Shown here piece after piece: positions 22,027-49,505 of a stretch of DNA of 57,189 nt. The position numbers were made by a program, and so were the translations under genes. The stretch lies in contig JAFUWW010000081.1 of assembly GCA_017471085.1 (NCBI GenBank), forward strand, positions 1-57,189, written 5' to 3'. The stretch's first letter is position 1; the number at the start of each line of letters is the position of its first letter. Below the pieces are notes generated by a model that saw only the letters and a program-made list of their open reading frames with translations, was not told where the DNA came from and searched no databases. This DNA comes from Bacteroidales bacterium (GTDB lineage Bacteria > Bacteroidota > Bacteroidia > Bacteroidales > UBA932).

Positions 22027-23139
22027 TTAGCGGCCCGTCACCCAGATGGGAGCGACACGCTTGCCTTCTACATCCACGAACACATAGAATCCCGGTTCCA
22101 CCTTGTCGTATTCAGTGACCTTGCGTCCTAAGGAAGCATAGGAGGTGGAAGGCTTCAGGGCCACATCCTCCTGCAGGTCGCCGACCTTTCCAAGGGTGAT
22201 GGTGTGGGATTTCGCGGAGAAGGGTTCGAAGGGCACCAGTATGAGATCCTTGCCACCCTCCTTCACATTCACGGCGACGAAATCATCCGTAACGGCAAGG
22301 ATGCTCTTGCCCAGATCCTCCACGGAGAAGGAGACGACTTCCTTCTTCTTGTCGATCTTCGCTTCAAGCCAGATGGCCGGATTGCCGTTGATGCGGACAT
22401 CCACCGCATCGTCCTCCTCCACGGGAACGGGAGCGGCCTCATAGGCATCATTGGGGACCTTGCGGATACTGGTTATCTTGCTCACGGTCAGGGGCATCAG
22501 GGAGCCTTCCCGGGTGAGGAAAATCGCCGAACCGTCCTGGAAATTCTGGGAAATCAGGGCGCCGGTCAACGTGGACATATCCTTTACCTCATAGATATCC
22601 AGATAAGGGAACATCTTGACGTTCAGGTTCTTATTACGGTCGACCGAAACCTTGGACTGACTGCGGATCTTGTTATCGGCGATCGTGATGATGCGGCCGT
22701 CCACTTCCATCTTCAGGTATTTGCCCACAATGGTTTCCACGATAGTCCCTTCGTAGGATTTGTCGGCCACGACCACATCGTGGATGACCTCGGAATAAGG
22801 ATAGCTGATGCGCTCGATATCCGACACTTTCACATAGATGGAGCCGGGGCGGTTCGTCGTGAAAGTGACCATGTCCCCTTCTTCCAGGATGTCGACGGAC
22901 TCAAACACATTCTTTCCCCAGCGGACTTCGGTCCTGTCGCCGGAGGAATAGACGGACAGGGAATCTCCGGGGATTGTAAATGTAGCGTTCGTATACGTGA
23001 TACAAGCTCTTCCGGAAGGATTCTGCTCGGAAACATAGCCGCTGTAAACGGCGCCGGTTTTGAGCTTCACCTCCTGAGCCTGGGCAAGACCCGCGACGGT
23101 AAGGGCCGCCGCAAGGGCCAACGCGAATCTCTTTGTCAT
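22027..23139 (-). CDS. Secreted protein with repeated small beta modules (last gene of kinase operon)
   Basis: 370 residues, not recognised. A signal peptide is clear (MTKRFALALAAALTVAGLAQAQ). The mature part repeats a motif that resembles SH3-like or Sm-like barrels: KLKTGAVYSGYV near residue 25, SYEGTIVETIVGKYLKMEVD near 129, and LTGALISQNFQDGSAIFLTR near 191, each with a Gly turn, hydrophobic strands, then a basic or acidic turn. Residues 250-370 differ (VDVRINGNPAIWLEAKIDKK). No catalytic motif is visible. It lies three bases after the WG-repeat gene and just before the terminator, so it is probably a periplasmic or surface partner in the kinase operon. Confidence 0.7.
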   Translation of the reverse strand: MTKRFALALAAALTVAGLAQAQEVKLKTGAVYSGYVSEQNPSGRACITYTNATFTIPGDSLSVYSSGDRTEVRWGKNVFESVDILEEGDMVTFTTNRPGSIYVKVSDIERISYPYSEVIHDVVVADKSYEGTIVETIVGKYLKMEVDGRIITIADNKIRSQSKVSVDRNKNLNVKMFPYLDIYEVKDMSTLTGALISQNFQDGSAIFLTREGSLMPLTVSKITSIRKVPNDAYEAAPVPVEEDDAVDVRINGNPAIWLEAKIDKKKEVVSFSVEDLGKSILAVTDDFVAVNVKEGGKDLILVPFEPFSAKSHTITLGKVGDLQEDVALKPSTSYASLGRKVTEYDKVEPGFYVFVDVEGKRVAPIWVTGR

Positions 23140-23142
23140 ACT

Positions 23143-24651
23143 CTAATCGAAAATAGGTTTAACCTGAAGGGACTTGGTGATGGTCTCGTCGCCATAGGCG
23201 ATGGTAATCCGGCGGCTCTCCGCCTTGGTAACCTTGAGGAAGGTGCCGTTTACACGGGCCTTCTGTCCGGCCTTCACCGTGATCGTCGTCTTCTTGGAAG
23301 AAACATTGCTGCCGGAGATGGAGACTGTCAGTTTCACATCCTGCTTGCCGGAATTGGTAAAGGAGACAACAAACGGCTGTTCATCCTTCTCATTGGCACG
23401 GTTCTGCGTGGTGGAAGCGGCAACAGCAATGCTGGCATCCGGACCCAGGGCGTCGAACTCCCCGGAGAAGATGACAAGGCCGTTGCAAGTGACCTCGACA
23501 TTATGGGTCGATGACGGCAGGACATACTGGGCGGTACGCTTGATGGTCCCGTCCCCCCGGAGCGTAAACTCCGAATTATGGTCGTCACCGAAACAACGGA
23601 CCGAGATGTCATCGTCCTTGAATTCTTCCGGCAGGGTAACCACGGCGGCAACGCCTTCCTTTCCCTTCTCGTTCACTGCTACGGAACCGCGCTCCAGAGA
23701 GCAGGATACTTCCCCGTCGATGAGTTTCAAAACACCCACCTCGCCGGAACGGACTTTCGCGACCGCGTAACCTTCCATGAAAGGCTTGGCCTCCTCGAAC
23801 TGGGCATTCAGGATGCGGCGGCTTCCCTTGACGTAACCGAACTTGCCGTTTTCCTGATACGTGGTGGGACCGTTGATGACAATGGGCTCCGTATAGCCTT
23901 CCGGTTGCTTCTCATCGGAAAGACGGTATTTCCAGTCGAACTTGAGATTGGGCTTCACATCCAGCTGGACAATCTGGCCGTTAGTGCCGATGGTGGCAAA
24001 AGAGCCGCTCTTGGTCCTGACCACGGCCTCATCCCTGTAGAAAGAGGTTCCGAACGTGATTTTTCCCAGACTCTTGTCCAGGGAAATCTCCACGCCGTTG
24101 CGGTCTACATAAGTGACCGGATCCTTGGAACTGAGCGGATCTCCGGTGGAAGAACCGTTCTTGCTGGGTTTCCCGAGGCCGACCAGGGCATATCCCTGGC
24201 AGAACGGATGGACCGTTGAATACTTGAAATCTACGGCCAGCCCCCCTTCCTTGTCCAGAAAGCCATAGGCTCCCTTCTTGTTGAACACCGGGAGCATGCC
24301 CTCGGAGAAGAAAGGATAGTCCCCTACATAGAACTCGCCCGGAGGGACCAGCATCTCACCGTCTTCCGAAATGATGCCGGCCAGACGGTAATTTTTGGAC
24401 TTGTCGACTTTAAGCGCTACGGCAAGGCCTTCGGAAAAATCGGTAATTTTGTCGGCCTCTTCCGGATCCACGACCATTTTTCCATCGGCGGTTACAACGC
24501 CTACACCCTTGACGGTCGTGACTTTGTACAGTTTCTCAGAAACCTGGTCGATGGATTCATACTCCGGCGGAACAGACCATTTGACACTCTGCGCCCGGAC
24601 ACCCAGGGCGCAGAGCATCAGACTCACAAAAACAAGTGTCTTTTTAATCAT
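23143..24651 (-). CDS. Secreted WG-repeat-like protein
   Basis: 502 residues with a signal peptide (MIKKTLVFVSLMLCALGVRAQ). Residues about 45-330 carry WG-repeat-like units: KGVGVVTADGKMVVDP, FSEGLAVALK, YRLAGIISEDGEMLVPP, FSEGMLPVFNKKGAYGFLDK, FMEGYAVAKVRSGEVGVLKL. The unit is a hydrophobic G-x-[IV/F]-[LIV]-x-x-x-G turn followed by [FY]-x-E-G-[LMY]. The C-terminal 160 residues look like Ig-type beta domains (FVVSFTNSGKQDVKLTVSIS; TTITVKAGQKARVNGTFLKV). WG repeats are thought to form beta-propeller-like binding platforms. It is separated by two or three bases from its neighbours, so co-expression with the FHA-protease is expected. Its ligand is unknown. Confidence 0.75.
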   Translation of the reverse strand: MIKKTLVFVSLMLCALGVRAQSVKWSVPPEYESIDQVSEKLYKVTTVKGVGVVTADGKMVVDPEEADKITDFSEGLAVALKVDKSKNYRLAGIISEDGEMLVPPGEFYVGDYPFFSEGMLPVFNKKGAYGFLDKEGGLAVDFKYSTVHPFCQGYALVGLGKPSKNGSSTGDPLSSKDPVTYVDRNGVEISLDKSLGKITFGTSFYRDEAVVRTKSGSFATIGTNGQIVQLDVKPNLKFDWKYRLSDEKQPEGYTEPIVINGPTTYQENGKFGYVKGSRRILNAQFEEAKPFMEGYAVAKVRSGEVGVLKLIDGEVSCSLERGSVAVNEKGKEGVAAVVTLPEEFKDDDISVRCFGDDHNSEFTLRGDGTIKRTAQYVLPSSTHNVEVTCNGLVIFSGEFDALGPDASIAVAASTTQNRANEKDEQPFVVSFTNSGKQDVKLTVSISGSNVSSKKTTITVKAGQKARVNGTFLKVTKAESRRITIAYGDETITKSLQVKPIFD

Positions 24652-24653
24652 TC

Positions 24654-26216
24654 TTAGAGGATATCTTTATACTCGTTGTAGAGTTCTTTCAAGAATTGGG
24701 CCTTGCAGGCCTTGCCGAAGGTGGCACCGGCCGTCCAGCGGCCCCAGTTCACACCATACAGCATTCCATTCTTGGGATTGAAGATTGGAGAACCGCTGGC
24801 TCCGCTGATGGATTCACCCTGATACTCGAAGGAATAGCGGTCCGGCTTCATGCTGACCATCGTCTCACGGATAACCGGCTGCAGAGAATGCGTGCTCTCT
24901 ACCAACGCATGCATGGTGCCACGAGGATAACCGATCATGACCAGTTTGTCGGCGAGAGGTTCGATGCTTCCTTCATATATTTTGGTTTCCATGTCAATCA
25001 CATACGGAATGTCATCCGGGGTCTTCTTGACATTCAGCTGAAGCAGGGCGACATCCTTCTCGTCCGTCTTGGACTCACCCAGCACAAAACAGCGGTCCAG
25101 TTCGTCCGTATGGGTGTAATAACGGTCCGGATAGCCCACGGAAATGTAGTCCATCACGCCCTTGAGGCTGATTTTCGCCTGGAGCATCTTGTCGATCATC
25201 GCATTCAGGTTGGCGCGGGAATTGTCACCGGAAGCGATCCATTGGTTGATAATCATAGAACCGAGAGAAGTACCTCTGAGCAGGTTTACGTCGTCCATGG
25301 AGTTGCACTCCGTAACAGGAATGAGCCTCTTGCGAAGAGCGTTCACATCATTGAGCAAGGAAGTACGGACTGCCTCGTCTTCATACTCCCAGGGGACGGC
25401 GACATGGCGGTTGGTGGCGAGGACACCCTTCCTGTCCACAAAGAAAGCCGTGGCAGAATAGGACTGAGAATTCTGGAATTCCAGTTCACCGTCCCATTCG
25501 GTCTTGGGGATGGGCGTATCCTCGAAGACGGCGATATAATGGTAGGAAGCCTGGACATAAACCACAGCAGGGACATATTTCTTGCTCCAGCCGCCGCCGA
25601 ACCCGCCGCCGAGCAGTGCCTTGATGCCGAAGAAGAGGCCGACGACCACAGCCGCAGAGGCAAGGGCGATGAGGGTAGGCTTGAGCCAGGCAGTATTATT
25701 GGGCATATAAGCGGCCAGCTGCTCGGTGACATCGGCATCACCGCAAATGACGCTCTGTCCGCGCTTGATGGGAACGAACTTGTTGACCGGGATCTTCTTG
25801 CCGTCCACCAGGGTTCCGTTCTTGCTCTCATTGTCCATGATGAAGAACTTCTTGTCCTTCTGCATCAGGATGGCATGATAACGGCCCACGAAAGGACTCG
25901 AAACAGGAATCTCCACCTTCTGGCTGGAGCCGATGTTGTACCAGGTCTCGCCGTTCTTGGGGCCGTAGTTCACCGGAACCTTGTTCCAGTTCAGTTCGAC
26001 GTCGCCGAAACGGACCAGGTCGCCCCTCTGGACGCGGACTTCCTCATTGGGGGTCAGTTTCTTGTTGCCCACGAAGGTTCCGTTGAGGCTGTTCTTGTCC
26101 TCCAGAATCATTTTTCCGTCGTCGGTCAGGAGCAGTTCTGCATGGAGACCGCTGACATACTCGCTGTTGAACACGATGTTGCAGCTGGCGGAGCTGCCGA
26201 TTTTCAAAAGTTTCAT
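24654..26216 (-). CDS. FHA-FHA-transmembrane-trypsin-like serine protease
   Basis: 520 residues in four parts. FHA domain A (1-78: LLKIGSSASCNIVF, SGLHAEL, SLNGTFVG) and FHA domain B (about 92-165: NIGSSQKVEIPV, GRYHAIL, SKNGTLVDG) lie in the cytoplasm. One transmembrane helix (about 178-204) follows. Residues 215-520 form a chymotrypsin-fold protease, presumably periplasmic, with a full triad: His271 (ATNRHV), Asp388 (EKDVALLQL) and Ser474 (GASGSP). Both FHA domains lack the Arg of the canonical GR motif that binds phosphothreonine (Ser instead), and domain B also lacks the Ser of SxxH. They may bind proteins without phosphate or hold the protease in a complex. It sits 33 bases downstream of the membrane FHA gene. 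Confidence 0.88.
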   Translation of the reverse strand: MKLLKIGSSASCNIVFNSEYVSGLHAELLLTDDGKMILEDKNSLNGTFVGNKKLTPNEEVRVQRGDLVRFGDVELNWNKVPVNYGPKNGETWYNIGSSQKVEIPVSSPFVGRYHAILMQKDKKFFIMDNESKNGTLVDGKKIPVNKFVPIKRGQSVICGDADVTEQLAAYMPNNTAWLKPTLIALASAAVVVGLFFGIKALLGGGFGGGWSKKYVPAVVYVQASYHYIAVFEDTPIPKTEWDGELEFQNSQSYSATAFFVDRKGVLATNRHVAVPWEYEDEAVRTSLLNDVNALRKRLIPVTECNSMDDVNLLRGTSLGSMIINQWIASGDNSRANLNAMIDKMLQAKISLKGVMDYISVGYPDRYYTHTDELDRCFVLGESKTDEKDVALLQLNVKKTPDDIPYVIDMETKIYEGSIEPLADKLVMIGYPRGTMHALVESTHSLQPVIRETMVSMKPDRYSFEYQGESISGASGSPIFNPKNGMLYGVNWGRWTAGATFGKACKAQFLKELYNEYKDIL

Positions 26217-26249
26217 ACAGTGTTATTTTTAATAATTATTGTCCGTTTG

Positions 26250-26855
26250 TTACAGTCCCAGCTTCATTCCTGCGGAGGCGGTATCGGCCGGCTCCTTCTT
26301 GGCTTCCTCGGCCTTCTTTTTGGCTTCTTGCTCCTTCTGCTTTTTCTTTCTTTCGGCCTCCCGCTTCTTGCGTTTTTCCTCTTCCGTCATCTTTTTGAGG
26401 ACTTCGTCCACATTGGTTCCCTCGATTCCGCTCTTCACGGTGTCGACAGGCTGAGTGGTTGCAGGAGGAACGGCGCCACCGCCGCCTCCACCGCCATAAG
26501 AACCGCCGCCGGAGGTCTTGAACAGGTAAGGTCTCGCAAGGAAGAAACCACCGACAAGCACGGCCAGGATCAGCAGGCAGAGCCCGGCGATCTTATAGCC
26601 CTTGAGCGGGTCCGGAATCTCTTTCCAGTCCAGCTGCGCCTGACCGGCGAAGGTGACCACATCCTTTCTCCGCACCCGGTAGGACATGTTCTGTTTCAGC
26701 TTGCGCCCGTTGATGGAAGTACCGTTGCTGCTCTTGTCAACGATTTCCATCTTGCCGGAAGGATAGACCTTCAGGAGCGCGTGCTGACGGCTGACAAATT
26801 CATTGTCTACGTGGATGGTATTGGTTTCTCCACGTCCAATGGTGTAGATTTTCAT
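26250..26855 (-). CDS. FHA-domain protein with membrane anchor and charged tail
   Basis: 201 residues. An N-terminal FHA domain (1-78) keeps the full phosphothreonine site: GR (7-8), SRQH (22-25), SSNGT (42-46). A transmembrane helix (about 88-107, IAGLCLLILAVLVGGFFLAR) follows, then a Gly-rich linker (116-127) and a Lys/Glu-rich helical tail (about 150-190, TEEEKRKKREAERKKKQKEQ and so on). With a cytoplasmic FHA the tail is periplasmic. It can act as a membrane receptor for phosphorylated kinase or FHA partners. The start is two bases after the PP2C stop. Confidence 0.85.
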   Translation of the reverse strand: MKIYTIGRGETNTIHVDNEFVSRQHALLKVYPSGKMEIVDKSSNGTSINGRKLKQNMSYRVRRKDVVTFAGQAQLDWKEIPDPLKGYKIAGLCLLILAVLVGGFFLARPYLFKTSGGGSYGGGGGGGAVPPATTQPVDTVKSGIEGTNVDEVLKKMTEEEKRKKREAERKKKQKEQEAKKKAEEAKKEPADTASAGMKLGL

Positions 26856-26857
26856 AA

Positions 26858-28276
26858 TTATATGCTGTTTAATATTCTATTCATTGCCGAAAGGATGTAA
26901 TTATACTGGCCCTCCGTGGAAGACTTTCCTTTATGGGTATAATTTACATCGTCCTGCTTGGCGATATCCTCTTTCAGCCATTGCAAGACATTCTTTGCAT
27001 CCTGAGTTCCGGCCTTTCCGGCCTTTTTGGCAAAAGCTTCGAAGTCGGCGCGGACGGCCTTGACTTCATTTTCCTTGTCCGTCGCATCCTGCCCGGCCTT
27101 TGCGGACATGGTCTTGAGCTTCTCCGTACGGCTGATAATGCCCCTCAGTTCCGCCCGCAGGCTTTCCCGCTCCGCTTTCTGCTCATTGATGCTCTCCTGC
27201 TCTTTCTTCACCCGCTCGGCGACCTTGCCCTGATTGCCCCCTGCTCCATCCATCTCGTTCACGAACTGGGCATGGTTTTCTTCCGCCTTCTGGAGGCGGG
27301 CCTGGGTATCCTTCAGTTCTTCATTCAGGCCGTTGACGACGAACACCAAAGAATCTACCTTGGTATAACCCTGTCCCTCGGCGGATTTGCCTGCAGGCTT
27401 GTTCCTTACAAGCAGGAACACGTTGAGCAGGATGCTGACAAGGGCGGCAGCCGCCAGTATCATGAAAAATGTTTTTTGCCTGGTACTCATTGTTTCGTGC
27501 ATTTTTGAACTTGTCTTTGTTTCCAGAAGGGCCAGCGTGAGGTTGTCGTGTCCTCCTCCCATGGCAAATCCTTCTTCGTCCACTTTTATCACCATGCTCT
27601 CCACCGCTCCGGACAGGACGGGCGTCCCGGCTGCGATGGCAATGATGGCTTTTTCCGGGAAAGCCCCCCAGATTCCGTCCGTACAGAGCATGAAGCGGTC
27701 GCCCTTCTCATAGGCCAGTTCCACGATGTCCGGCTTAACCGTTTCGGAGATACCCAGCGCCCGGAGAATGATGTTGGAATCCGGATGTACCCGTGCCTCT
27801 TCTTCCGAGCGGATTTCGTGTTCCAGAAGTTTGGCGAAGACCAGCGAATGGTCGAAAGTCCGGAAATGCTTGCGTCCGTGACGGAACTGATAGACCCGGC
27901 TGTCGCCCACATGGGCGACCACGGCCGAAAAGTCATCGATCAGAAGAGCGGTGAGCGTAGTGCCCATCCCTTTCTTTTCCGGATCCTCCTTGACGGCGTC
28001 AAGGATGGCCTGGTTGGCCGATTCAATCGCCTTCTTCATCAGGAGGCAGCGGTCCGCCTCCTCATCTCCGTGCTCCTGAAGGTACTGGAGCAGCGAATGG
28101 GCGGCAAGCATCGAAGCTTCCTTTCCGGACGGTCCGCCACCCATTCCGTCACAGACGGTGACCAGGAATCCCGCCGGGGTGTCGCCCCAGGCGCAGGAGT
28201 CCTGATTCTCCCGCCGGCCGCCTTGCCGGCTGTCCGCGAAGACGGTAACAGGGTAGGATGTTTTCAGTTGTTTCAT
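26858..28276 (-). CDS. PP2C-type protein phosphatase with membrane anchor and periplasmic coiled coil
   Basis: 472 residues. The PP2C domain (about 10-252) has the expected metal-binding motifs: RRENQDS, VCDGMGGG (Asp43), AHVGDSRVY, LCTDGIWG (Asp200) and GGGHDNLT (Asp244). It should be an active Mn2+/Mg2+-dependent Ser/Thr phosphatase. A transmembrane helix (about 269-290) links it to an extracytoplasmic coiled coil (about 305-415, with ESINEQKAERESLRAELRGI) and a helical C-terminus. The domain order, phosphatase inside and coiled coil outside, resembles a signalling phosphatase controlled across the membrane. The ATG overlaps the stop of the tail-anchored kinase (ATGA), which couples kinase and phosphatase synthesis. 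Confidence 0.92.
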   Translation of the reverse strand: MKQLKTSYPVTVFADSRQGGRRENQDSCAWGDTPAGFLVTVCDGMGGGPSGKEASMLAAHSLLQYLQEHGDEEADRCLLMKKAIESANQAILDAVKEDPEKKGMGTTLTALLIDDFSAVVAHVGDSRVYQFRHGRKHFRTFDHSLVFAKLLEHEIRSEEEARVHPDSNIILRALGISETVKPDIVELAYEKGDRFMLCTDGIWGAFPEKAIIAIAAGTPVLSGAVESMVIKVDEEGFAMGGGHDNLTLALLETKTSSKMHETMSTRQKTFFMILAAAALVSILLNVFLLVRNKPAGKSAEGQGYTKVDSLVFVVNGLNEELKDTQARLQKAEENHAQFVNEMDGAGGNQGKVAERVKKEQESINEQKAERESLRAELRGIISRTEKLKTMSAKAGQDATDKENEVKAVRADFEAFAKKAGKAGTQDAKNVLQWLKEDIAKQDDVNYTHKGKSSTEGQYNYILSAMNRILNSI

Positions 28277-29244
28277 ACAAACAATATAAGCAATAAACCG
28301 ACGAGTACCGCCGCACCTGCTCCAATCAGTACCGGAAGCAGCCAGGAAGGCGTTCCTCCGGATTTGCCGGAAGCATTCCGGGAGGGAGCAGACTTGCCGG
28401 CCACCGCCTCCGTCAGCGCCCGCTTGAATTCCGCCGCACTCTGGTAACGGTCGGCCGGAAAGCGCTGAAGGGCCTTGCTGAGCACCTTCATCACCGGACG
28501 GGAGACGCCGGGGATCGGCTTCAGGGAATCGGAATCATCCGAATAGGGTTTGACCCCGCTGAGCAGGTCGTACAAAGTGGCACCCAGTTCGTAGATGTCC
28601 GTGGTATTCTTGAACGAAATCTCCGTCTGTCCTTTCTGGATATACTGCTCGGGGGCCGCATAGCCCGGTGTTCCCAGCAGGCCGCCGTTGCCGGACGATA
28701 TCAGTTTGGAGGTATAGGCGATGCCCAGGTCCATCAGCCGGATGTTGCTTCCGTTCTCCACCATAATGTTGGAGGGCTTGATGTCCAGATGGACGATGCC
28801 TTTCTCATGCAGGTAGGTAAGGGCGTCCATCACAGGATAGGTGGTCCGGCAGATCCTCGCCACCCAGTCCGGCGAATTGCGGAGCTGCTCCACATATTTG
28901 TTCAGGGGAACACCCTGCACCAGCCGGCTGATGATGAAGATCGGCCCTTCGTCCTCATACTCTTCGCAGTAGCCCACCATCTCGATCAGGTTCCTGTGGC
29001 GGAAAGCCAGGGAAGCCTCCGTCTTGGCGCGCTGACGCACGGCCGGGATCTCGGCAATCTGGGGAGCCACCCGCTTGATGGCCACCATGTCGTAGCGGTC
29101 ATTGTAGGCACGGCCGAAATAGACGGTCCCCATGGCACCGCTGCCAAGGGGTTTTTCGGTCTTGTCATAATAGAACCACTCCCCCGTGTTGGCACGGAGA
29201 TAGACCTTGTTCCCGTCTACTTTTATATTCTGATGCCCTGACAT
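28273..29244 (-). CDS. Tail-anchored Ser/Thr protein kinase (non-RD type)
   Basis: 323 residues. The kinase domain covers about 28-275: Gly loop GSGAMGTVYFG, Lys57 (VAIKRV), catalytic Asp154 in VHLDIKPSNIM, metal-binding Asp172 in MDLGIAY, and GTPGYAAPEQ. The residue before the catalytic Asp is Leu rather than Arg (HLD), so it is a non-RD kinase, a class that often does not need activation-loop phosphorylation. A Ser/Gly-rich linker (about 280-299) leads to a C-terminal transmembrane helix (301-323), leaving no extracellular domain. Its start overlaps the stop of the upstream kinase (TAATG). Confidence 0.93.
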   Translation of the reverse strand: MSGHQNIKVDGNKVYLRANTGEWFYYDKTEKPLGSGAMGTVYFGRAYNDRYDMVAIKRVAPQIAEIPAVRQRAKTEASLAFRHRNLIEMVGYCEEYEDEGPIFIISRLVQGVPLNKYVEQLRNSPDWVARICRTTYPVMDALTYLHEKGIVHLDIKPSNIMVENGSNIRLMDLGIAYTSKLISSGNGGLLGTPGYAAPEQYIQKGQTEISFKNTTDIYELGATLYDLLSGVKPYSDDSDSLKPIPGVSRPVMKVLSKALQRFPADRYQSAAEFKRALTEAVAGKSAPSRNASGKSGGTPSWLLPVLIGAGAAVLVGLLLILFV

Positions 29245-30809
29245 TACTGCAACTTGCTGTTGACTTCCTCGGCAAAACGGGTATTCCCCTTATTGGCCGC
29301 CCAACGCGCACAGGCCTCCAGATGCCTCCGGGCCTTTCCGGGATCACGTTCTCCGGCGATGATGTCATCGACCCGCTTGGTGTAGGAATAGGCCAGTTCG
29401 TAATGGGCGTAGTAACAGGTGCTGTCCTGCAGATAAGCCTTGCGGCTAAAATCGTAGGCCTTCTGGTAGTCGATGTCGAAGGGAGACTCCAGGCCCAGGT
29501 CCGTGCAGGCGCCCTCGTGGCTGTACAAGGCGGCCATAATGGCATTTGCCAGGGCCGATGAAGTGGAATCCTTCTCAATGGCCTTGTTCAGGAGCTCCAC
29601 TCCCTCCGCAGACTGTCCGGCCTGCAGTTTGGCAATCGCTTCCTCCGTGTACCAGGCCGCGCTGGGAAGGGTATCGCGCGGAACGACCACCTCAGGCTCT
29701 TCCACCACGGCGGCGGGATCCGGCCGGGGCTGTTTGGGACGGGATGCCAGCGCTATGACGATGCCGGCGATCACCACCACCGTAGCGGCAATGCCGCCGA
29801 TGAGCTTCCAGTTGGGCGCAGCTCCTTTCAGGGCTACAGCGACGGGAGTACTGTCGGAAGCCGTTTTCTCCCTGGTGACCGTATGCTCCAGATCGGCCCG
29901 GAACTCGGCGGCCGACTGGTACCGGTCCGCCTGCTTCTTGGCCATGGCCTTGGACACGATGGCACGCATCTTCCTGTCCTTGATCTGCGCGACGGGGGGT
30001 GCGCTCTTGAGCTGCGCCTCCAGGATCTCCTGGCGGGGACCGTCGAAAGGAAGATGGCCTGTAAGGAGCTGGAAAAGCACCACGCCCACGGCGTACAGGT
30101 CCGTGGTGGGATCTTCATGCGCGATGTCGCCGAGCACCAGTTCCGGAGAAGCATAGGCTGCCTTGCCCATGAACTGGCCGGCCGTGGTGAGGTGGGCATT
30201 CTGCCCTTGGGCCTCCGATATCTTCTTGGCGATGCCGTAGTCGATGATCTTCACTTTCCCGTCGGCCGTGACCATGATGTTGCTCGGGTCGATGTCCCGG
30301 TGGATATAGCCCCTGTCGTGCAAGGCCATGATACCGGAGAGCACATTCTTGATGATGAAACGGGCGAACTCTTCCGGCTGCTGGCGGGACTGGAGATACA
30401 GGTCCTCCGCCAGTTTCACCGGCCTTCCGTCCGGCCCGGTGGTCACGCCTTCCAGCAGATCCGAAAGGATCACGCCATAGAGCAGTTCGCTGGCCACATG
30501 GTAATGGCTGACCACTCCGCCGTCCACCTGCTCATCCACCTGGATGAAGCCGAACATTTTGAGGAGGTTCTCATTGTCGATCTGAACCGACGCCTCGCGC
30601 CTCGAACGCTCGATGGCGTTGGGAGGGAGGTCATCGAACAGGAACTTTATGGCCGCAGCCTGACGTACACCGGTGCGTTCGTCCACCCGGACGCCCTTGA
30701 AGACCTGGCCCATTCCGCCTGCTCCGATCGGGTCCAGCTCCGTATCCACCTCGTAGTGGATGCCGAGCCGTTTTTCCTCAGCACCTTGAATCTTCAGGAT
30801 AGACGCCAT
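29244..30809 (-). CDS. Ser/Thr protein kinase with membrane anchor and TPR-like periplasmic domain
   Basis: 521 residues. The kinase domain (about 20-312) has a Gly loop GAGGMGQVFKG, Lys55 (AAAIKFLF), HRD at 170-172, DYG at 190-192 and YASPELV. The usual Lys two residues after the catalytic Asp is replaced by Asp174 (HRDIDPSNIM), so phosphotransfer may be altered. A transmembrane helix (about 335-356) leads to an acidic Pro-rich linker and a helical repeat domain (about 380-521; AWYTEEAIAKLQAGQSAEGV, YYAHYELAYSYTKRVDDIIA) that looks TPR-like and would be periplasmic. The layout resembles receptor kinases that sense outside signals through C-terminal domains. It is three bases from the FHA gene upstream. 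Confidence 0.93.
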   Translation of the reverse strand: MASILKIQGAEEKRLGIHYEVDTELDPIGAGGMGQVFKGVRVDERTGVRQAAAIKFLFDDLPPNAIERSRREASVQIDNENLLKMFGFIQVDEQVDGGVVSHYHVASELLYGVILSDLLEGVTTGPDGRPVKLAEDLYLQSRQQPEEFARFIIKNVLSGIMALHDRGYIHRDIDPSNIMVTADGKVKIIDYGIAKKISEAQGQNAHLTTAGQFMGKAAYASPELVLGDIAHEDPTTDLYAVGVVLFQLLTGHLPFDGPRQEILEAQLKSAPPVAQIKDRKMRAIVSKAMAKKQADRYQSAAEFRADLEHTVTREKTASDSTPVAVALKGAAPNWKLIGGIAATVVVIAGIVIALASRPKQPRPDPAAVVEEPEVVVPRDTLPSAAWYTEEAIAKLQAGQSAEGVELLNKAIEKDSTSSALANAIMAALYSHEGACTDLGLESPFDIDYQKAYDFSRKAYLQDSTCYYAHYELAYSYTKRVDDIIAGERDPGKARRHLEACARWAANKGNTRFAEEVNSKLQ

Positions 30810-30812
30810 GGC

Positions 30813-31496
30813 TTACAGCAAGTGAGAGGTAAAACCTTCGTTGGTGTCCGAATCGCCGTCCAGGCCTTCGGTGCCGCCCTGGGGACGACGGCGGGAATCG
30901 TACATGCGCCCGCTGGTGGAGGTACGGTCCGAATCGAGGTCGAACTCGTCGCGGATGGATTCCTCCTTCTTGGCGGAGGTCTGTTCCGCGGCGACGAAAT
31001 TCTCCGCCACCTTCATGCCCAGTTCGAACGGATTCACCAGAATCAGATAGAGCACGTAATTGTCGCCGATGGTGAGGAAGTCTCCATTCTTGCACTCGGC
31101 TTCCTTGCGGACTTCGTCTTCATTCACGAAACCGCCGTTGACGCCACGCACATAGATATCGGCCAGATACTCCTTGGTGGTCTTCATCCGGCGGATGTTC
31201 AGGGTGGCATGGTGGCCGGAAACGGTCATTTCCGAAAGGACGATGTCGTTGTCATCATCCCGGCCGATGGTATTCTCACCCAGATGCAGAGGCCAGTATT
31301 CGCCGGCGGAAGTCCTGGATACGGAATACAGGAAACCGACGATAGGTTCACCGGACATGAGGGTATGGTCCTTCTTTTCCTCACGGGGAGCCTTTTCAGG
31401 AGCGGAAGAAATAGCATTTTCCATATCGGGGATATGGGTCCCTTCGAAAGACTTGGAAGAGGCGCCGGAGCGCGAATACAAAGGTTTTAGTGCCAT
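30813..31496 (-). CDS. Soluble FHA-domain protein with Ser/Thr-rich tail (first gene of kinase operon)
   Basis: 227 residues, no signal peptide or membrane helix. The FHA domain (about 52-155) keeps the phosphothreonine site: TIGR (76-79), SGHH (93-96) and VNGG (119-122). The first 50 residues and the last 50 are low in complexity. The C-terminal tail (DSDRTSTSGRMYDSRR, then TEGLDGDSDTNEGFTS) is rich in Ser, Thr and acidic residues and is a natural candidate for phosphorylation by the two downstream kinases. It may be the cytoplasmic adaptor of the system. It has the operon promoter and a leader of roughly 110 nt in front. Confidence 0.87.
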   Translation of the reverse strand: MALKPLYSRSGASSKSFEGTHIPDMENAISSAPEKAPREEKKDHTLMSGEPIVGFLYSVSRTSAGEYWPLHLGENTIGRDDDNDIVLSEMTVSGHHATLNIRRMKTTKEYLADIYVRGVNGGFVNEDEVRKEAECKNGDFLTIGDNYVLYLILVNPFELGMKVAENFVAAEQTSAKKEESIRDEFDLDSDRTSTSGRMYDSRRRPQGGTEGLDGDSDTNEGFTSHLL

Positions 31497-31615: not shown

Positions 31616-31647
31616 CAAATATATCATTTTTCTTCTTATTTATCAAA
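31616..31647 (-). promoter_or_regulatory. Promoter of the kinase/phosphatase/FHA operon
   Basis: On the minus strand TTTG (31647-31644), a 20-nt spacer, TATATTTG (31623-31616), a near-perfect Bacteroidota promoter. The start of transcription would fall near 31610, giving a leader of about 110 nt before the ATG at 31496. The leader has a small hairpin (CTTCC and GGAAG arms around 31563-31579), no T tract. Confidence 0.85.
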
Positions 31648-31650
31648 CAT

Positions 31651-32652
31651 TTATCTTGGGTTGATGAATAAAAATTCCAGCCGGGATTTATCTTCCGTGA
31701 AAAAAGGAATGTCCGGGTCCATCACGGCGGCAAAGAAGGAGGCAAGCCTGTCCCGTATTTCCGTAAAATATGGATTGAGAGAGCCGTCTTTATTCAGATG
31801 AATACTGTGTACTCCTCCCTCATAAGGGTGTAATTCTGAAACGCGTCCCATCTCCTTCAGCCTCCGGTCTATCTCATAAGAACCGAACATCCTGTCGAAC
31901 AGCGCAGTTTTCACTTTTTTGACGGATGCAAGCATTTCCTGGAAAGGGTAGCCTTCGACATAAGGGACGATCGGATCTTCGATGCTGTGGAAGGAAATGA
32001 CAGCCGCCCGGGAACGGCCGAGCATGTCCAGGTCCTGGATCGCACCCCATAGATTTCCTACAGCCCGCACGCTGAAAGACCGGTCCTCCTCCGGCATGAA
32101 CGCCAGGTTCAGGGCCGTGATGGCTCCCGCACTGGTACCGGCGACAAAGATGCAGTCCGGATCGATCCGCAGGGAATCCTGTTCCAGCAAAAAACGGATG
32201 GCCGCATCCGCATCCTGCACCGCCCGGTATCCCGCCCGCTGGATTTCGTCATGGGTTGGACGGAAACCCAGCCGGTAATTGACAGAGACCGCCACATAAC
32301 CCAGACTGGCGAAATGGCGGCACCACCCCGCATACTCCTGTTCCGCCTTGTCCCCGTTGAAAAAAGCGCCGCCATGAATCATCAGCAGAAGCGGCCGGGA
32401 AACCGGAACGTCCCCTTCAGGCACATAGATATCCATGCACAGTTCCTGCATGTCCATACCGACCAGAGCAGGAAGCTTCCGGGCATAGACAACCCCGAAA
32501 TCCTCCCCGTGTACACAAGGATAGGAAGTCCAGAAACCGCGCGCCCATCCATACGTGACATCCTTATACTCCGCCACCTCATAACGGGCATGGACCCAGT
32601 CGGCCGCCGGCCGGGATACAAACAACAGGGATAATAACAGGGCGATCATCAT
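31651..32652 (-). CDS. Secreted alpha/beta-hydrolase (carboxylesterase-like)
   Basis: 333 residues with an N-terminal signal sequence (MMIALLLSLLFVSRPAADW). The hormone-sensitive-lipase/carboxylesterase signature is seen: oxyanion motif MIHGGAFF (about residue 90), nucleophile elbow VAGTSAGA (about 166-173), a likely acidic residue in HSIEDPIVPY, and a likely catalytic His in GGVHSI. It probably removes acyl or acetyl groups, perhaps from glycans, but the substrate cannot be told from the sequence. It ends just before the -33 box of the kinase operon and follows the gene at 32667 after 14 bases. It may read through into that operon, as no terminator is visible. Confidence 0.8.
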   Translation of the reverse strand: MMIALLLSLLFVSRPAADWVHARYEVAEYKDVTYGWARGFWTSYPCVHGEDFGVVYARKLPALVGMDMQELCMDIYVPEGDVPVSRPLLLMIHGGAFFNGDKAEQEYAGWCRHFASLGYVAVSVNYRLGFRPTHDEIQRAGYRAVQDADAAIRFLLEQDSLRIDPDCIFVAGTSAGAITALNLAFMPEEDRSFSVRAVGNLWGAIQDLDMLGRSRAAVISFHSIEDPIVPYVEGYPFQEMLASVKKVKTALFDRMFGSYEIDRRLKEMGRVSELHPYEGGVHSIHLNKDGSLNPYFTEIRDRLASFFAAVMDPDIPFFTEDKSRLEFLFINPR

Positions 32653-49456: not shown

Positions 49457-49505
49457 CAAAGATAGACACTTTTTGCCGAAATTGCACAAAAGTTTGTTAT
49501 CTTTG
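49457..49505. promoter_or_regulatory. Interleaved divergent promoters (kinase-like gene and nnrD)
   Basis: Plus: TTTTG (49471-49475), 22-nt spacer, TATCTTTG (49498-49505), then the nnrD ATG at 49510. Minus: TTTTG (49491-49487), 22-nt spacer, TATCTTTG (49464-49457). Each -33 box lies within the other promoter's spacer, symmetrical about position 49481. Confidence 0.8.

Follow-up and report, generated by a model that had tools for sequence, protein, structure and literature searches.

Eight minus-strand genes between positions 22027 and 31496 of a 57,189-nucleotide contig (JAFUWW010000081.1, from the Bacteroidales assembly GCA_017471085.1; hereafter the window, by which we mean this whole stretch) make up a conserved operon of gut Bacteroidales that probably links phosphorylation inside the cell to a protease outside the inner membrane. 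The operon looks like an undescribed relative of the switch that arms the type VI secretion system (T6SS). Because of its gene content we draw a parallel with the T6SS threonine phosphorylation pathway (TPP), TagQRST–PpkA–PppA–Fha, and we give an even chance to the reading that this is a trans-envelope switch working by Ser/Thr phosphorylation and constructed like that pathway, to which an HtrA-type protease tethered to the membrane adds a further outward output. The direction of signalling, the substrates and the topology are ones that we infer.

From first to last, the genes encode a soluble FHA protein, FHA1 (30813–31496; 227 aa; Pfam FHA, 5.6e-11); a Ser/Thr kinase, KIN1 (29244–30809; 521 aa; Pfam Pkinase, 2.2e-31), with a transmembrane (TM) segment at about residues 336–354 and a C-terminal TPR-like ectodomain; a tail-anchored Ser/Thr kinase, KIN2 (28273–29244; 323 aa; Pfam Pkinase, 2.8e-32); a PP2C phosphatase (26858–28276; 472 aa; Pfam PP2C_2, 1.9e-16) with a TM segment at residues 272–290 and a coiled-coil-like ectodomain; a membrane FHA protein, FHA2 (26250–26855; 201 aa; Pfam FHA, 2.8e-16); an FHA–FHA–TM–HtrA-like serine protease, FFP (24654–26216; 520 aa; two Pfam FHA domains and Trypsin_2); a WG-repeat protein, WG (23143–24651; 502 aa; Pfam WG_beta_rep, 5.8e-14); and an all-beta protein, BETA (22027–23139; 370 aa; no family over the cut-off). 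A sequence-only reading of the window had proposed this run of minus-strand genes with overlaps or gaps of 2–33 bases; the open reading frames (ORFs) and their Pfam domains agree, the spacings from FHA1 to BETA being 3, −1, −4, 2, 33, 2, and 3 bases. In hydropathy scans, KIN1, KIN2 (at its extreme C-terminus), FHA2, and FFP each have one TM segment, and PP2C has a strong peak at residues 272–290 and a marginal one at 211–229 inside the catalytic region. We read the N-termini of WG and BETA as signal-peptide-like. The TPR-like domain that had been assigned to KIN1 is plausible as an ectodomain, but no TPR family scores over the cut-off in Pfam or NCBIfam.

Relatives of the operon were selected through FFP alone. 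The FFP protein search covered 5.8 billion proteins, with 7995 candidates scored and 481 matches, 120 of them listed; an FFP alignment of 37 rows retrieved genome loci, the best 80 of 147 confirmed stretches giving 77 loci. We used 49 of these (L001–L048 and L050) and left out L049 and L051–L077 (28 loci). Each comes from a different genome, some of these being closely related; contig ends truncate L020 and L048, and locus genes were taken by greedy ORF choice rather than by a trained caller, whereby one FHA1 match was lost in L037. We label the loci as subtypes A, B, and C, with the window in subtype A. PP2C is present in 49 loci, KIN2 in 48, FHA2 in 48, KIN1 in 42, FHA1 in 40, WG in 39, and BETA in 38, the FHA1 and KIN1 counts being too low because six subtype B loci carry both genes farther upstream. 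KIN2–PP2C–FHA2–FFP is contiguous in 44/49 loci, and the full eight-gene set occurs in 27/49, in order in 23. The window gene order is kept in 41/49 separate-genome loci, more than chance would give; the proposal that the genes form one unit therefore survives the alternative of random assembly in relatives. Pairwise distances among KIN2, PP2C, FHA2, and FFP correlate as well (r 0.70–0.88, 48 rows), and the FFP/PP2C value of 0.70 was reached by 0/1000 permutations, whose maximum was 0.27. Subtype C loci mostly have a gene for an outer-membrane barrel (c2) after WG. Peptidase genes adjoin some operons, M6 in L041 (by clustering also L042) and S41 in L039 (by clustering also L043 and L045). Among the loci left out, L049, L051, and L053 have a full-length FFP-like protein beside FHA, PP2C, and kinase genes in a different order, so that the order count with these added is 41/52. 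This distant relative system occurs in Bacteroidales and one Clostridium-labelled metagenome-assembled genome (MAG); it has a kinase, which carries FHA in L049, the one scanned, and also a kinase of ∼1230–1270 residues, and two of the three loci have a small FFP-like FHA protein.

Both kinases, the PP2C, and the protease appear to be active enzymes, judging by their motifs. The kinase motifs HxD and DxG are kept in 43/43 aligned KIN1 rows (Lys in 42, with one gap) and in 49/49 KIN2 rows (Lys in 48, with one X), nine PP2C motif positions are kept in 50/50 rows, and the FFP catalytic triad (His271, Asp388, Ser474) in 50/50 rows. The FFP protease domain is HtrA/Deg-like, sharing the chymotrypsin-like fold and the His-Asp-Ser triad with HtrA, DegP, and DegS. 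DegS also has a membrane anchor, as FFP does. FFP differs from these proteases in that Pfam gives it no PDZ match (E 0.1), that two FHA domains precede its TM segment, and that a helical insertion separates the His and Asp of the triad. BETA is one family across the subtypes (hhalign probability 100, E 1.5e-66); its structure model is nearly all beta (pLDDT 89.0), and no convincing solved structural relative was found.

Phospho-threonine binding by FHA domains depends on an Arg that holds the phosphate. FHA2 keeps the G, R, S, R, and N positions in 49/49 rows, and FHA1 has the GR Arg in 32/41. In FFP, the first FHA domain has Arg in only 10/50 rows (Ser in 34) and the second in 0/50 (Ser 41, Thr 8, Lys 1). 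The FFP domains are thus unlikely to be ordinary phospho-readers, their folds probably docking independently of phosphate in most members, and the likely phospho-reader is the small membrane protein FHA2. On this point the sequence-only reading is not supported as it was put.

That reading had also called the system possibly new. The domain architecture of FFP is not: an identical one, FHA–FHA–trypsin, was tabulated in 2008 for NP_811686.1 of Bacteroides thetaiotaomicron (PMC2605481), with no operon, topology, or system given and the word ‘kinase’ occurring 0 times in the main text as available. For the operon, no description was recognised in literature titles and abstracts, which is weak evidence of novelty as most subscription journals lie outside that coverage.

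The membrane Ser/Thr kinase, PP2C, and FHA proteins are parts that the operon has in common with the T6SS TPP as described in the available text of PMC10482370 and PMC12607579: the kinase is in the membrane and has its catalytic residues, a PP2C is in the cluster in 49/49 loci, and the FHA2 reader is canonical in 49/49 rows. Compared with the available description in PMC10482370, the operon has two kinases, several FHA proteins, the transmembrane FHA–FHA–HtrA protease, WG, and BETA, and the window lacks T6SS genes. ClpV-, TssB-position-, TssC-, Hcp-, VgrG-, and TssR-like queries match none of the 224 window ORFs, and the T6SS, TssR-like, and related queries together match solely the operon’s own families. 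Three relatives, forming one clade, are by contrast encoded with T6SS core genes, so that the earlier statement of ‘no Tss genes’ holds for the window and fails for them. In L047 (L102–L103), the operon continues co-directionally into genes for a ClpV-like AAA protein, a TssB-position protein (148 residues, no Pfam match), TssC, two Hcp (TssD) proteins, and a VgrG-like spike, beyond which lie another WG protein, a kinase, and a kinase–FHA protein. G260 shows the same join, as does L046 as far as its contig reaches, ending inside TssC. These three relatives are grouped with 100/100 support in the FFP tree, which carries a long-branch warning; the T6SS link is thus confined to one branch, with the window outside. 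Subtypes A and B join in the tree with 100/100 support, seven rows of B form a group (87/78), and L025 is placed among the A rows. The T6SS of G260 and G436 (L100–L102) is a divergent Bacteroidales form, with TssC at 434 and 436 bits compared to up to 770 in others; G436 has two Hcp proteins and a VgrG-like spike with kinase, FHA, and WG genes on either side, and G260 has no TssR_C match.

These linkages also bear on a plainer explanation, that the operon is simply the PpkA–PppA–Fha pathway acting on a T6SS encoded elsewhere in the window’s organism. Direct linkage in L047, L046, and G260 favors it, as does the frequency of TssC (PF17541), found in 7/49 carriers compared to 15/387 sampled genomes that lack a full-length FFP (Fisher p 0.007, uncorrected for kinship or completeness). 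Yet 42/49 carriers have no TssC match (many being MAGs, in which gaps may account for some of the absences, and one, the L046 genome, having the start of TssC cut by the contig end), and in 6/7 TssC-positive carriers TssC lies on a different contig from the operon. The HtrA-like protease, WG, and BETA, moreover, have no counterpart in the pathway as the available text of PMC10482370 describes it. We consider this explanation distinctly unlikely.

The likeness to the TPP extends in subtype B to an ABC ATPase, an FtsX-type permease, and an outer-membrane barrel in one cluster, as in the available description in PMC10482370. Six subtype B genomes, with FFPs 39–72% identical, share the gene order FHA1–KIN1–large PKD-like protein–outer-membrane barrel–c8–c13–TssR-like–ABC–FtsX–KIN2–PP2C–FHA2–FFP–BETA, some with an extra or doubled gene; a seventh (L022/L132) has the subtype B genes in a different order. 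The matches behind the zinc-ribbon and PKD labels in this subtype fall short of the Pfam cut-offs. In L027, the TssR-like protein passes the Pfam cut-offs for the N, VWA, and C domains of TssR, which it has in common with TssR of the T6SSiii membrane complex TssNQOPR (available text of PMC10781749), and its neighbors pass those for ABC_tran and FtsX; the other six TssR-like proteins are 43–49% identical to it. The subtype B systems differ from that complex, as it is presented there, in the lack of a TssC match in any of the seven genomes and in the clustering of the TssR-like gene with genes for ABC, FtsX, kinase, PP2C, FHA, and protease proteins. In L132 (G414), two TssR-like pieces (123 and 163 residues), one match having an internal stop, follow the full TssR-like gene and may be a decayed or split tandem copy. 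With seven relatives carrying TssR-like/ABC/FtsX genes and three joined to T6SS genes, the system is close in build to PpkA/PppA/Fha, and the contrast with that pathway drawn in the sequence-only reading holds for the window but not for all relatives.

A TssR_C search of the 393 sampled genomes, made independently of FFP, matched nine. The best matches exceeded 100 bits in five genomes, all with TssC (G002, G021, G146, G241, and G310), and were weaker in four without a TssC match (G058, G116, G350, and G384). ABC and FtsX genes come after the TssR-like gene in all four of the latter, and in three (G116, G350, and G384) PP2C and kinase matches lie nearby; Pfam confirms FHA in these three, kinases in G384 and G350, and PP2C in G116 and G384 (the two tested). 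Since these loci were not picked by FFP, the association of TssR-like, kinase, PP2C, and FHA genes is not a selection effect. In their loci (L133, L135, and L136, from G116, G384, and G350), TssR-like, ABC, and FtsX genes are followed by FHA, PP2C, and kinase genes, perhaps pointing to a broader family of such systems lacking the FHA–FHA-protease.

The same block weighs against a further alternative, that the operon is an envelope stress pathway of PrkC/DegS type unrelated to secretion machines, its T6SS and TssR-like linkages being secondary captures. A Deg/HtrA-like protease, TssC in just 7/49 carriers, and a base composition like that of the flanks suit such a pathway. A sparse distribution (full-length FFP in 6/393 genomes) is unlike that of housekeeping genes, however, and in six genomes the TssR-like/ABC/FtsX block and the core are arranged in a single constant order, a similar block occurring with PP2C, kinase, and FHA genes in the loci not picked by FFP. 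Nor do KIN1 and KIN2 show the extracellular PASTA repeats of PrkC/PknB: Pfam finds no PASTA repeat in either, and NCBIfam PknB_PASTA_kin scores 158 and 135 bits compared to a cut-off of 450. We hold the envelope stress alternative to be unlikely. A bolder reading, which we think less likely than not, is that Bacteroidota possess a family of envelope machines gated by phosphorylation and independent of the T6SS. Their kinase/PP2C/FHA core would control a complex of a TssR-like vWA protein and FtsX, together with the transmembrane FHA–HtrA protease; TssR of T6SSiii and Proteobacterial TagQRST–PpkA would then be specialised relatives or parallels of this switch, and the window would hold a pared-down version with the protease as its sole output.

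Two Hanks kinases beside a PP2C, with FHA involved, also occur in the KKP prophage module (available text of PMC11341870). An anti-phage or toxin–antitoxin module of that kind, in which PP2C restrains toxic kinases and phage inhibition of PP2C frees them, would fit the adjacent kinase–kinase–PP2C genes, the matches of the kinases to PADLOC kinase models (as most bacterial Hanks kinases would match), and the patchy distribution. Of the six full-length FFPs among 393 sampled Bacteroidales genomes, two were matched in two pieces, and four more genomes match in the FHA part only; the count may be low, with ≤3 candidates scored per genome. Locus labels such as Prevotella, Phocaeicola, Muribaculaceae, Tannerellaceae, and Cryptobacteroides show a spread that is thin but wide. 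The KKP pairing of a cold-shock kinase with an FHA kinase, mostly carried by prophages, is not seen here. Unlike KKP as given in that text, the operon has no cold-shock domain and no kinase–FHA fusion in its eight proteins (Pfam), and it has TM segments, a protease, and exported genes; a KKP-like role leaves the exported parts unexplained. FFP matched 0/50,697 phage records, with one short match in viral contigs and one plasmid-labelled record (Phocaeicola). There is no prophage sign in the window either: no phage genes were found among 12 scanned neighbors, the flanking genes include Ffh, RNase Y, and an SbcC-like ATPase, and the operon’s base composition resembles that of sampled flanking genes. 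A KKP-like module is therefore very unlikely.

The distinction from TerY-P triads made in the sequence-only reading stands, as Pfam gives no VWA match in the eight proteins; subtype B relatives, unlike the window operon, do have a TssR-type vWA protein. The vWA–MoxR ternary conflict systems differ from the operon in their defining parts, as far as the available text of PMC7159879 describes them. The words ‘kinase’ and ‘FHA’ are both missing from the main text, as available, of two Bacteroidota T6SS papers (PMC10781749 and PMC4714493), and no word beginning ‘trypsin’ appears in the available text of a classification of bacterial PP2C proteins (PMC12088040).

Under the TPP-like switch that we favor, WG, BETA, and the kinase and PP2C ectodomains would sense the state of the envelope outside the inner membrane. 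KIN1 and KIN2 would add phosphate to threonines of partners or of the system’s own cytoplasmic parts, with PP2C resetting them, and FHA2 (and FHA1) would recognise the phosphorylated sites and so build a complex at the inner membrane. FFP would be brought in by its two FHA folds, docking for the most part independently of phosphate, and assembly would switch the FFP ectodomain on against periplasmic substrates, for which BETA or WG come first as candidates. This same switch may, in relatives, gate a T6SS or a TssR-like/FtsX envelope complex.

Several observations weigh against this switch or parts of it. The loss of Arg in the FFP FHA domains weakens any simple wiring from phosphate to protease. 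WG was not found in 10/49 loci and BETA in 11/49 at the thresholds used, so neither is an obligate substrate everywhere. TssC is found in just 7/49 carrier genomes, and neither the window nor L001 nor L002 has any match to the T6SS or TssR-like block queries; T6SS is thus not a general target. The KIN2 tail anchor exceeds the hydropathy threshold in just 23/48 homologues, and the charges flanking the TM segments are not decisive, topology being read from domain type. Shared descent alone would also yield the correlated distances of the core proteins. L025 has PKD-position and outer-membrane genes past the operon, where its contig ends, in a genome without a TssR match; G058, one of the four TssR-like genomes without TssC, has no kinase or PP2C match in the two regions examined; and the G116 kinase is a 148-residue piece (31 bits) at the edge of the fetched region.

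Upstream of FHA1, an exact match to TTTG-N20-TAnnTTTG, which we take to be the Bacteroidota promoter consensus, lies at 31616–31647 on the minus strand. The window has seven exact matches, compared to 0.39 expected, and none falls within the operon (22027–31496); two face each other at 49457–49505. A BD-FAE/alpha-beta hydrolase gene (31651–32652, minus strand) lies 154 bases upstream of the operon; we left it out because the gene before the operon in L001 is longer and on the opposite strand.

Ser/Thr phosphorylation in bacteria is mostly known to signal inward or within the cytoplasm. If the reading proposed here is true, FHA domains inside and an HtrA-type protease outside would constitute a route from cytoplasmic phosphorylation to periplasmic proteolysis, and the T6SS-linked relatives suggest phosphorylation control of a Bacteroidota T6SS. 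The carriers include named isolates, Phocaeicola massiliensis DSM 17679 and P. faecalis, which make both ideas testable.

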